This document shows, in pieces, positions 12,926-18,240 of a stretch of DNA of 33,727 bases. Within the stretch, counting starts at the first letter, position 1. Every line of letters starts with the position of its first letter. This stretch comes from Planctomycetota bacterium. Lineage in GTDB: Bacteria; Planctomycetota; UBA8108; UBA1146. The translations under genes and the position numbers were made by a program. The stretch lies in the NCBI GenBank assembly GCA_015664425.1, contig DQQH01000235.1, positions 1 to 33,727 of the forward strand, written 5' to 3'. Below the pieces are notes generated by a model that was given only the letters and a program-made list of their open reading frames with translations, was not told the DNA's origin and did no database searches.

Positions 12926-14433
12926 TGCGGTGGTTGCTCAGAGACGTGCAACCATTCCCGCCGAAGCAGTCCCTGCCAATGAATTGCGATCTCCTCATCG
13001 ATGGCCATCGAGTGGTCGAGTGGACCCCGGTTGGGAAGGGCCAGGAATCTGGGGCTACGGTTGTCGATGTCGATGGCCGCTGGCTTCTGCCAGCCTTTGT
13101 CGACAGCCACCAGCATCTCTTGTTCTCTGCCCAGCGTCGGGCAGAGAACCTCTCCGTTACTACCAGCCCCGCTGACTTGATCAAAACGCTGCCCGCGACC
13201 GAACGCGGGAACTGGCTTGTCGACAGCGGTTGGAGAGACCCTCTCCCCGACAGACTGATTCCCGATCCGCGCCGATTTCTTGATTCCATCGCTCAAGATC
13301 GACCGATCTTTCTGTGGGCCATCGATCATCATCGAGCCCTGGTCAACAGTGCCGCCCTTTTCGAGGCTAATATCGATCCTCAGCAGCACTCGGGCATTGC
13401 TGTAGAGGAGGAGGCGGAGAGAATCTGGCGTCGAGTCCCCGATGCCGAGATCGACCTCTCTGGTCGGATCGAAAGATTGCATCGACTTGGAGTGGCTGCG
13501 GTCACCACCTTCGACCGTGGTGTATCCCGCAAGATTCTCCAGGAACACTGTGCTGCCGGCGACCCGGGCCTGTGGATCCGCCATGGCATGGCAGGAGAAG
13601 AACTACTCGAGGCGATCGAAACCGGCGAGGATCCGAAACCAACCTCGAACAGGGAGTCACTGTTTCTGGTGCCTTGGGTGAAGTTATTTCTCGACGGTAC
13701 CCTCGGGTCGCGTACCGCATGGATGAAGAGCGACTATTCGGACCAGCCGGGTGAAAGAGGAGTCAGGCGAATCAGCAAAAATGATCTGGAGAGTCATGTC
13801 GAACGGGCCGCCTCCCGCGGCTGGGGCCTGGCGATCCACGCCATCGGCGACAGGGCGGTTCAGGAAGCGATCGCTGCAATTCTTCGTGCCCGGGAACTCG
13901 GCGCCACGGCAATTCCCCACCGGATCGAACACGCCCAGTTGATCGATCCCGATGATCTGCCTGCCCTCGTTTCGAGCGGTGCGATCGCTTCTGTCCAGGC
14001 CTGTCACATCATCGAGGACCGGAAAATCGCTGACGACCGCTGGGGAGATCGATGCATGGGGGCTTTTCCCCTGGCTACTCTCGAACGAGCCGGTGTTCCA
14101 ATGATCCTGGGGAGCGACGCTCCAATCGAGAGTGCCGACCCGTGGCTCGATATCGCTTCTGCGGTGAATCGGAGCGATCGCTCGTGCTGCGCACAGCCCT
14201 GGGTCAAGAGCGAGCGTATTGTCTTCCCCCGGGCTTTCCATGCCAGGACAAGAGCAGCCGCTGACGGAAATCTCCTGCCCAGGGGATGGGGGACTCTCGA
14301 CCCTGGGACTCACGCGGACCTTCAGATACTGGATGCACTAGATCCTGTCAGCATCACTTGCTGGCAGGAGGCGTCGATCTTCGACATGATGTGCCTCGGT
14401 GAATGGCGACTGGGAAATTTGGAGCGCCTCTGA
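12922..14433 (+). CDS. Amidohydrolase family protein (YtcJ-like)
   Basis: LLPAFVDSHQHLLF, VKLFLDGTLGSRTAWM, IHAIGDRAVQEAI, RIEHAQLIDPDD, MILGSDAPIESADPWLDI. Confidence 0.8.
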   Translation: MMRWLLRDVQPFPPKQSLPMNCDLLIDGHRVVEWTPVGKGQESGATVVDVDGRWLLPAFVDSHQHLLFSAQRRAENLSVTTSPADLIKTLPATERGNWLVDSGWRDPLPDRLIPDPRRFLDSIAQDRPIFLWAIDHHRALVNSAALFEANIDPQQHSGIAVEEEAERIWRRVPDAEIDLSGRIERLHRLGVAAVTTFDRGVSRKILQEHCAAGDPGLWIRHGMAGEELLEAIETGEDPKPTSNRESLFLVPWVKLFLDGTLGSRTAWMKSDYSDQPGERGVRRISKNDLESHVERAASRGWGLAIHAIGDRAVQEAIAAILRARELGATAIPHRIEHAQLIDPDDLPALVSSGAIASVQACHIIEDRKIADDRWGDRCMGAFPLATLERAGVPMILGSDAPIESADPWLDIASAVNRSDRSCCAQPWVKSERIVFPRAFHARTRAAADGNLLPRGWGTLDPGTHADLQILDALDPVSITCWQEASIFDMMCLGEWRLGNLERL

Positions 14434-14452
14434 CGGTGGAAAGAAGGCCAAT

Positions 14453-15373
14453 TTGCAGACGGTGGTGGACCTCCACGTGGACACCTTGCCACGAATCTCC
14501 GCGGGAGAAGGGCGTTTTGCGACCGGTGAAGGGAAACTCCAGGTCGATCTCGAACGCTGCACACGCGGCTCGGTGCGGCTCCTCCTGACTGCGCTGTACA
14601 CCACCGATGGCGCTCCTGATCCGTGGGGCGAGGTCGAGAGGATGCTGGGGGTCCGGGACCAGGAACAGGGCCTCAGGACGGTCACGTCGCCCTCGCAACT
14701 GGAGACTCTCCAGGCCGATGAGGTCGGTTCCCTGGCCACCATCGAAAATGGGCAGTCTCTCCAGGGACGTCGGGACCGGGTCGAGAAACTCCACCGCAGA
14801 GGGGTCCGGATCATCGGGATCACTTGGAACGGCGCCAACGACCTCGCTGAGGGGGTGATGGAAGACCGGGGCAACGGCCTCACCCGGGCTGGTCGTGAGA
14901 TCGTTGGTGAGGTGAAGGAACTGCAGATGGCCATCGACATTTCCCATCTCAATCCCGAGGGAGTCAGAGATGTCGCAGCTTCCGAGGTTCCCTTCCTGGC
15001 GACCCACTCCAATGCGAGGGCCCTCTGGGATCACCCGCGAAACCTCACCGATGAACAGATCCATTGCGTCGGCAGTTGTGGCGGGATTATCGGGATCAAC
15101 TTCTACCCGCCCTTCCTTGGAGAAAAGGGGACGGTTGATGTCGGCACGGTGGTCGCTCACATCCGCCATGTTGCCGAACTCATCGGGCCCGAGCATTTGG
15201 GGATTGGCAGCGATCTCGATGGCATCTCCTTGTTCCCCGAGGGACTGAGAGACCATGGCGATCTGCATCGCCTCACTTCGGCGCTGGAGAGTGCGGGTTT
15301 CAGTGCCAATGAGGTCGAGGGGATAGTCGGGAGAAACTTCCTGCGCTGGTGGGAGAGCTGGTGCGGCACCTAG
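14453..15373 (+). CDS. Membrane dipeptidase-like protein (peptidase M19 family)
   Basis: VVDLHVDTL, IDISHLNPEG, ATHSNARAL, GGIIGINFYPPFL, HLGIGSDLDGI. TTG 14453 with upstream GGAAAGAAGG preferred over track start 14399. Confidence 0.8.
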   Translation: MQTVVDLHVDTLPRISAGEGRFATGEGKLQVDLERCTRGSVRLLLTALYTTDGAPDPWGEVERMLGVRDQEQGLRTVTSPSQLETLQADEVGSLATIENGQSLQGRRDRVEKLHRRGVRIIGITWNGANDLAEGVMEDRGNGLTRAGREIVGEVKELQMAIDISHLNPEGVRDVAASEVPFLATHSNARALWDHPRNLTDEQIHCVGSCGGIIGINFYPPFLGEKGTVDVGTVVAHIRHVAELIGPEHLGIGSDLDGISLFPEGLRDHGDLHRLTSALESAGFSANEVEGIVGRNFLRWWESWCGT

Positions 15374-16488
15374 CCGTGTTTCTGCTTCTCTGCATCATCG
15401 GGTGAGAACCTGGCGATGACCCGGTCACAAAAACTTCGCCCTTCCTGGGGATTTAGCGCCTTCCATCTTCCGCTCCGGGTGCGTTCGGCGATCGATTCAC
15501 CGGAATAACGGACGCTGGTGATGTGGGTTCCGTCGAAGCTAAAGACATGGACCCGATTGTGGGGGCCCCTGACAACGTAGGTGAACTCCCGACGGTCGTG
15601 GAAAAGGTCTGACTCCCGGGAGCTGAGGACATCGGAGAGGGCGCTGGCGGTGGGGCGATCGGGATCCCTGCTGCGAACCTGAGCGTGATGGGTTCGGCGG
15701 GACCCCCTGCGCAGGAGCTTGTCGAGGTGATCGCAGGAACTTCTCATCGAATCGAGAATCTCCTGACGGATCGTAGGCAGTGATATCCGCTTGCCGGTGC
15801 GGACGCCGGTGGCGATCTTCTCCTCGATCTGGTGGAGGCCTTCTCGAAGGAAGCCGATCCAGCCCCCGAGGTGGGGGACCGGGCCATGGGCGAGAAGGCT
15901 CGGAAGATGGTGTGGCGGAGGCAAGGAAACGACGAGGTTCAGGGTGTATCGCGGTGCCGGCCCTCGGCGGTGGTGCTCCATTAGCAGGGCAGTGACCGAG
16001 AAAGTCCTGGACCGGTCTCCTTCGAGGGTGAACCGGGGGAGGGAAAAACCCCCGGCCAGGACGCTACCGAGAATGCGGGCATGAGTCGGAGGCCTCTCGA
16101 ACTCGGGGAGGACGTCCCCCGCGAGATCCGCGATGGGGTGGAAGACTGCCACCGGAAGGGGCGGAGAGGAATGCAGTCGATCGACACGGGGGTCGCCGAT
16201 CTCGATGAGCCACGAGGCAAAGTTCCTCCAGATGGGAACACCGGTGGGGGAGATGGAACTGAGAACCGCCCTCTGATCGGAGGGGAGGGAGTGCTCGCAA
16301 ACGGGCGAGGAGCACCAGGAACAGGGGACGTGACCGTTGCGGTACCCCAGGACCTCGGTGGAAGCCTGCTCCGAGATCGACCCGACCTGCTCCGATATGG
16401 CGGAGAGGAAATCGTCGCAAGCTCGCTTCCAGCCCTTGCCCGAGATCTGTACTGGAACTCTCAGGTTGAGTTCGATCCTGTCGGGCAA
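15370..16488 (-). CDS. Orphan protein with CxxCxxxxCxH motif; the 5' end probably extends to ATG at 16624 with a 1-nt frame disruption at a C9 tract
   Basis: Only long minus-strand ORF not lying antisense to a better gene. Contains CSWCSSPVCEH. Reading frame stays open upstream of the annotated TTG start without any ATG/GTG/TTG. Confidence 0.6.
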   Translation of the reverse strand: MPDRIELNLRVPVQISGKGWKRACDDFLSAISEQVGSISEQASTEVLGYRNGHVPCSWCSSPVCEHSLPSDQRAVLSSISPTGVPIWRNFASWLIEIGDPRVDRLHSSPPLPVAVFHPIADLAGDVLPEFERPPTHARILGSVLAGGFSLPRFTLEGDRSRTFSVTALLMEHHRRGPAPRYTLNLVVSLPPPHHLPSLLAHGPVPHLGGWIGFLREGLHQIEEKIATGVRTGKRISLPTIRQEILDSMRSSCDHLDKLLRRGSRRTHHAQVRSRDPDRPTASALSDVLSSRESDLFHDRREFTYVVRGPHNRVHVFSFDGTHITSVRYSGESIAERTRSGRWKALNPQEGRSFCDRVIARFSPDDAEKQKHG

Positions 16489-16731
16489 CCCCGATCCATC
16501 AATTTTGGCCCCGGCGAGCAGTTTCTGGATGTATCGATCGAGGTGGCGGTAGACGGAGATCCCGGGGTCTTCCCTGGGAGCGCATTCCCGGGGGGGGGCG
16601 CGGTTTACCTCTCGAGGGAGCCATCTCCAAATCCTTCCGGGTTGATTCTAACTGACCAGGTTCTCCTGGACAGTCACCTTGTGCAGAACGGCAACGGTCC
16701 CTAACCTCTGGGCGTGAAGGGATGGTCCCCT

Positions 16732-18240
16732 GTGAAACGCACCCTCAGCGAGCACCGATGGTCTCCATCGCTGGGGTTGCTTGTCGCTCTAACATTCCTC
16801 CTGTCGACTTCACTCCTTCAGCAGCCGCTGGCTCTTGCAAGCGAGACTCCTCTTGGCGAGATTCTGCAGCTTGCACGGGAGCACGGCCTTCGCGGCAGCG
16901 AACTGTCGTTCTCCGTTGTTTTTCCCGATGGCCAGTTCATCGAGCACCGTGCGGATGTTGCGATCCCTCCCGCATCCTGCATGAAACTCCTCACCGCTGC
17001 GGCAGTCCTCGACAACCTCGGTCCTGACTTCTCCCTCGACACCGACCTGGTGGTCACCGGTTCCCTTGAGGGGGGCACCCTCGATGGTGACATCATCGTC
17101 ATCGGCAGAGGGGATCCGGCGATTTCGGGCAGGGAATTCGAGAACGATCCGGTCGCCGAACTGCGTCCCTGGGTCGGACGGCTGAAGGCACTCGGCATTC
17201 GCGTGGTCCGTGGCCAGTTGCTCGCTGACAACCGCTATTTGCAGGGCTCAACTCGCGTGCCTGACTGGCCCAGGGATCAGCTCCATCGCTGGTACTGCGC
17301 GCCATCGGGAGCGTTGAACCTCAATGACAATTGTTTCGACATCGTGGTCAAACCCGGTGAATCGGGCTCCATTAGTGTCGACCTCCGACCGTCCAACGCA
17401 CTGGCGCATCTGGAGGGCACGATTTTTCCGACCCAACTGCGCAGGGAGCATCTCTACCGCATCGATCGGGCACCGAACAGTTGGACGGTGAAGGTGAGCG
17501 GTCGATTCCTGACGACAGCCAGCGAAAGGGTCGAGTGGGTCACCGTTCCCGATCCGACCCGCGCCTTCCTCGGTGTCTTCCACAAGATGCTGGAGGACTC
17601 CGGAATCACCATCGAAGGCACGAAGAGGGATGCTCCTCGATTGCAGGAAGGCCGCCTCGTCGGCAGGATCGAGCACTCCGTCGCTTCTCGCCTGCCGGTT
17701 TTTCTCAAGAGGAGCCAGAATCTCTATGGCGACTGCCTGATGCGGGTTCTCGGCCGCGAATCGGGAGGAGATGGCAGTTTTCCCTCGGGTGCTGCTGCCC
17801 TCGTCTCCCACGCCGCTGATTTTCTCGGGGAGGTGGAGGGGCTCGTCGTGCGTGATGGTTCGGGACTCTCTTCCCTGAATCGATTGCGCGCGGGGGACCT
17901 CACGCGCCTCCTCATCGGGTGGAAGAAGCGTCCCTGGTTCGACCTCCTCGATGAGGCGCTGCCCCTGGCAGGGGTCGACGGCACCCTCGAGAAACGATTC
18001 AGGAATACTCCCCTGGCCGGTCGATTGCGGGCGAAAACGGGGCACATCAACGGGGTTAGCACCCTGGCGGGGAGTTGGCGAACCGCTCGCGGAATGGTTT
18101 TCTTCTCCCTCTTCTTCCATGGCACCCCGAGCAGCACCCCGCGGGCGCGCGGTTGGCAGGAACGCACCCTACTTCACCTCGACACTCTCCTCGGGGGGCC
18201 CCCTGGTCCTGCTGGAAGTCTGCCTAAGCCAGTGGGTTAA
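16732..18240 (+). CDS. dacB: D-alanyl-D-alanine carboxypeptidase/endopeptidase, PBP4 type (peptidase S13)
   Basis: Signal peptide then PASCMKLLTAAAVL (SxxK), VRDGSGLSSLNR, AKTGHINGVSTLAG (KTG). Start 16714 or 16732. Confidence 0.85.
   Translation: MKRTLSEHRWSPSLGLLVALTFLLSTSLLQQPLALASETPLGEILQLAREHGLRGSELSFSVVFPDGQFIEHRADVAIPPASCMKLLTAAAVLDNLGPDFSLDTDLVVTGSLEGGTLDGDIIVIGRGDPAISGREFENDPVAELRPWVGRLKALGIRVVRGQLLADNRYLQGSTRVPDWPRDQLHRWYCAPSGALNLNDNCFDIVVKPGESGSISVDLRPSNALAHLEGTIFPTQLRREHLYRIDRAPNSWTVKVSGRFLTTASERVEWVTVPDPTRAFLGVFHKMLEDSGITIEGTKRDAPRLQEGRLVGRIEHSVASRLPVFLKRSQNLYGDCLMRVLGRESGGDGSFPSGAAALVSHAADFLGEVEGLVVRDGSGLSSLNRLRAGDLTRLLIGWKKRPWFDLLDEALPLAGVDGTLEKRFRNTPLAGRLRAKTGHINGVSTLAGSWRTARGMVFFSLFFHGTPSSTPRARGWQERTLLHLDTLLGGPPGPAGSLPKPVG

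Follow-up and report, generated by a model that had tools for sequence, protein, structure and literature searches.

A one-base surplus in a C run breaks the leader of a conserved Planctomycetota gene, most likely through run-length error or chance slippage

Here, we examined a 33,727-nucleotide stretch of DNA from a Planctomycetota bacterium (the window, which is contig 73 of a 2.22 Mb genome in 293 contigs, 82% complete), in which a lone minus-strand gene is thrown out of frame near its 5′ end by a run of nine cytosines. Most likely, this C9 is a run-length miscount or incidental slippage in an intact core gene, as at several other G/C runs of at least 9 in the same assembly. According to the scenario we propose, the minus-strand gene would be an intact, conserved core gene of a Planctomycetota family with its true start at ATG 16624, and its first codons would cross the C run within a lineage-specific leader rich in Arg, Pro and Lys, where the assembled run appears to hold one C too many for the open frame (C9 where C8 fits). 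The surplus base would most likely stem from a miscount of run length during sequencing or assembly or, failing that, from slippage that happened by chance in the population sampled. We regard a technical miscount as reasonably probable and incidental real slippage as rather unlikely; the usual run of the organism is probably C8, and we infer that no regulation is involved. Four observations favour such an error or slippage over a switch: several unrelated genes of the assembly carry a break with an identical surplus of one base, relatives lack the C run, long runs show no enrichment and the gene is part of the fixed core.

The frame break itself can be read directly. On the minus strand, the sequence runs ...CCCGGAAGGATTTGGAG ATG GCT CCC TCG AGA GGT AAA CCG CGC CCC CCC CCG GGA..., with a ribosome-binding-site-like GGAAGGATTTGGAG (16625..16638) 5′ of the ATG (16622..16624) and exactly nine C at 16598-16590, that is, at codons 9-12 counted from ATG 16624. 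The frame opened by this ATG meets a stop after 41 codons. The frame of the 372-amino-acid open reading frame (ORF; 15370..16488) has no stop between 16647 and the one at 15372-15370, and the sole ATG, GTG or TTG that it contains upstream of the conserved core is the TTG at 16488-16486. Removal of one base from C9, a homopolymer of at least 8 in coding sequence that lies one base off the open frame and for which C8 fits, joins the ATG to the ORF over 1254 nt, or 418 codons with the stop. In these respects, the preliminary description of the locus was accurate: it had an ATG running into C9 one base out of the ORF frame, a single-C deletion uniting the two in 418 codons including the stop, and an internal TTG as the lone standard in-frame start as long as C9 is intact. 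The window has a GC content of 60%, and a scan for sigma-70-type promoters gave no match. The convergent neighbour on the plus strand encodes a peptidase of the M19 family (membrane dipeptidase; 14399..15373; Pfam PF01244, E 5.9e-80) and overlaps the end of the minus-strand gene by 4 bases; the divergent neighbour, also on the plus strand, encodes an S13 D-Ala-D-Ala carboxypeptidase (16714..18240; Pfam PF02113, E 1.8e-71). Elsewhere in the window, the leader just upstream of an FHA/sigma-54 regulator gene (ATG 18354) contains a C7 run and another C9 (18304-18326, plus strand), both outside the conserved coding part of that gene.

Where the gene begins is answered by its homologues. In same-family relatives, the ORF opens with an ATG that usually follows AGGAG and lies upstream of where the window has its C run, some 40 codons ahead of the site of the window TTG; in most close relatives, AGGAG occupies the same place as the ribosome-binding-site-like sequence of the window. 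The leader of the relatives is basic, as in MTQQGPRKKPRSRAAESIHRRIRGVVKSLL, and the protein read from ATG 16624 likewise has a basic beginning, MAPSRGKPR. Beyond the run, the coding stretch at 16489..16589, ECAPREDPGISVYRHLDRYIQKLLAGAKIDGSG, is a conserved N-terminal segment: the window residues ...EDPGISVYRHLDRYIQKLLAGAKIDGSG align with the N-terminal leader of the relatives, and 14 sequences agree without exception at R6, L24, L25 and G34 of the aligned segment. Thus, ATG 16624, with its ribosome-binding-site-like sequence and basic beginning, is most likely the natural equivalent of the start in the relatives and, judged by homology, the break at C9 of the minus-strand gene is real. The extension upstream of the TTG that had been put forward for comparison with homologues is therefore borne out, as relatives share the segment after the run; the opposite outcome, homologues that begin at the TTG with no conservation upstream, is not what we find. 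The idea that the gene starts at TTG 16488 and that the sequence before it is non-coding draws on the assembled sequence offering, in the frame of the ORF, no other candidate codon before the conserved core, but it has to contend with the conserved upstream residues, the earlier starts of the relatives and the nature of the codon itself, which specifies the invariant Leu of GLPD-IELNLR (L35 in alignments A2 and A4; CTT in relatives where the codon was read) and lacks a properly spaced ribosome site, GGATCGGGG abutting the TTG. We consider this start virtually ruled out, the TTG being an invariant internal Leu codon. For a conserved, unnamed Planctomycetota protein family, the annotation is corrected accordingly, from TTG 16488 to ATG 16624.

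The family (window 15370-16622, minus strand) is class-wide in Planctomycetota and uncharacterised, carries a Cys/His motif and is without a Pfam entry. A search of 58 relatives, none of them a second genome of the same genus, gave homologues in 27 other genomes, with E-values down to 2.5e-107, and the gene is present in 14 of the 15 other genomes of the same family. The window protein alone, used as a query of genome contigs, gave no match; an alignment of 7 sequences of close relatives matched 13 named contigs, and those with close relatives belong to metagenome-assembled genomes, mostly labelled Planctomycetota or Planctomycetia. Sequence searches of Pfam, NCBIfam and PDB with the minus-strand protein returned no match and no solved relative. 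Conservation is concentrated in the motif GHxxCxWCxxxxCEHS, carried by the 372-residue ORF, and in a C-terminal region, RPTSxAxSD...RGPxxRxHVFxxxGxHxTS. An AlphaFold2 model built with 14 sequences is of low confidence (mean pLDDT 66), its C-terminal region being the best part, and a Foldseek search with this model yielded no usable match. Two homologues are themselves irregular: one (L028/L029, G031:C95 near 4773) is divided between two frames whose junction has no long homopolymer, and that of G023 (L023 near 1590) has an in-frame TGA in the conserved cysteine motif, CHLC*SVDC compared with CHWCRSFEC in relatives.

The gene lies in the order PNPase, amidohydrolase, M19 peptidase, minus-strand gene, S13 carboxypeptidase, FHA/sigma-54 regulator. 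The loci L094 and L101 of relatives share this order, so that, wherever checked, the lone minus-strand gene proves to be a constant feature of the family. All 372 codons downstream of the break are intact to the stop and the conserved residues are kept. The constant position within a conserved order of genes and the intact downstream part show that the gene is not an old pseudogene. A recent true pseudogene, with C9 fixed and the gene dead in the species, would account for the presence of the break in the assembled consensus, but the intact remainder and the retention of the gene in 14 of the 15 other genomes of the family, at an unchanged position wherever this was checked, make such an event highly improbable.

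Evidence on the origin of the extra C comes from other homopolymers of the same genome. We determined coding phase on both sides of each run with a codon model trained on 15 genes of the window, in a census that covered the fetched stretches of the genome rather than every run. At G/C runs of at least 9, phase was broken in 5 of 15 testable cases, small counts to be read against a background of some 4-5% apparent breaks from gene boundaries and noise, and all five were one base too long (+1). A phase change was scored at 24 of 512 testable G/C runs of 5-8 (one-sided Fisher p 0.0007 against the longer runs) and, within these lengths, at 1 of 34 runs of 8 (p 0.008); runs of at least 9 in relatives, which are likewise draft assemblies yet are little affected, showed it in 3 of 35 cases (p 0.04), and phase was kept across all 6 A/T runs of 8. 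Broken frames are thus over-represented at G/C runs of at least 9 in this genome. C9 of the minus-strand gene does not count among the five, as the sequence on its upstream side does not reach the length required for scoring; we read it as one example of a weakness that long G/C runs show across the genome.

The genes affected by a +1 at a G/C run are unrelated to one another. They encode a hybrid histidine kinase whose break falls within LTFSKGGAPI (L052, 250-258), an M3 peptidase (L030, 1501-1509), an NFACT protein (L053, 1501-1510) and an unassigned product (L170, 1421-1429); an FtsX/MacB-like permease (L047, 1501-1509) is a further case by frame arithmetic, and L032, to which no gene family was assigned, is the weakest of the five in the census. 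The halves of broken genes match successive parts of one family or architecture, namely Peptidase_M3 3-110 followed by 187-453, HisKA followed by HATPase_c, and NFACT_N followed by NFACT-R. In a separate instance, an FG-GAP/UnbV gene (L071) has a C8 run (1502-1509) that would need one more base to keep the frame.

The simplest explanation of this pattern is a counting error during sequencing or assembly. Real slippage in the sampled cells would look alike in a single consensus, and true slippage during replication would equally be compatible with breaks that set in at G/C runs of at least 9 and are almost missing at runs of 8. Such slippage could arise if mismatch repair were lost, but a loss is not supported: MutS is whole in the genome, and the first 155 residues of MutL were found in frame with a full-length query before a contig end cuts the gene, although a MutL domain search of the genome gave no match.

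The preliminary description had left two options, a phase-variable tract or an indel error. Their shared premise, a real N-terminal extension from ATG 16624, is supported by comparison with homologues; between the two, error or incidental slippage is favoured, and the contingency tract is without positive evidence. Under phase variation, slipped-strand mispairing among C8, C9 and C10 would toggle the protein, with C9 as the OFF state. Compatible with this are the position of the run at codons where a break abolishes the protein, the intact downstream ORF, as a reversible state would have it, and the hypermutability of G/C runs of such length in known phase-variable genes (PMC2831843). However, none of the relatives has a C run of at least 7 at the homologous site, so that a conserved switch is excluded; the same breaks occur in unrelated genes such as those for the M3 peptidase and NFACT; neither the family searches nor the low-confidence model gave a sign of a surface or variable protein; and in a survey, poly(C)/poly(G) tracts were not placed nearer 5′ ends (PMC2831843). 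Nor are long G/C runs in excess in the genome, where 28 distinct runs of at least 9 (22 of length 9, 5 of length 10, 1 of length 11) follow the 74 runs of length 8 in a smooth decay. One leader among the relatives (L014) contains an in-frame A8 and C6, and thus the leader tolerates low-complexity sequence. An in-frame G10 run is also present in the coding sequence of an apparent recA of the genome (L050, 1282-1291).

Regulatory phase variation at C9 is accordingly possible but unsupported, and we hold the phase-variable contingency gene to be improbable. A broader version, in which the +1 breaks at G/C runs of at least 9 are real and act as slow on/off switches through slipped-strand mispairing, the minus-strand gene included, strikes us as slightly more doubtful still; the set would span genes of regulation, proteolysis and ribosome rescue in an environmental Planctomycetota lineage and, if the breaks are real, would matter as an example of an environmental bacterium with many G/C-run switches operating at once. 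More generally, claims of phase variation from single assemblies can be tested cheaply by asking whether other long runs break unrelated genes in the same direction.

Strong transcriptional slippage is known mainly at A/T runs. This speaks against the possibility that C9 is real and the +1 is tolerated, with slippage of RNA polymerase along the C run or frameshifting by the ribosome partly restoring the frame of an expressed gene, as does the lack of any such run in relatives. Tolerance would be in keeping with the several retained genes that carry the same +1 at G/C runs, and transcriptional slippage is cited in a passage of PMC2831843 as rescuing A-run frameshifts in Buchnera; we nonetheless deem it very unlikely.

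Compared with known systems, the locus resembles the poly(G)/poly(C) contingency genes of Helicobacter, Neisseria and Bordetella (PMC2831843, PMC5084427, PMC1891110) in having a long C run near the coding 5′ end and a downstream frame off by one. It differs from them in that the run is not conserved in relatives and long runs show no excess, in that the gene is an ordinary chromosomal core gene and similar breaks affect housekeeping-type genes, and in being known from one assembled consensus. With the slippage rescue in Buchnera it shares a frameshift at a homopolymer inside a retained gene, whereas here the run is of C/G rather than A. The closest parallel to run-length error, the reading we prefer, is provided by the homopolymer-length indel errors discussed for metagenome assemblies (PMC8808543), which have in common with the present case a one-base difference in a long run, a conserved gene that is otherwise intact and several instances within one assembly; what sets this genome apart is that mostly G/C runs of about 9 or more are involved, with a +1 in each such case seen.
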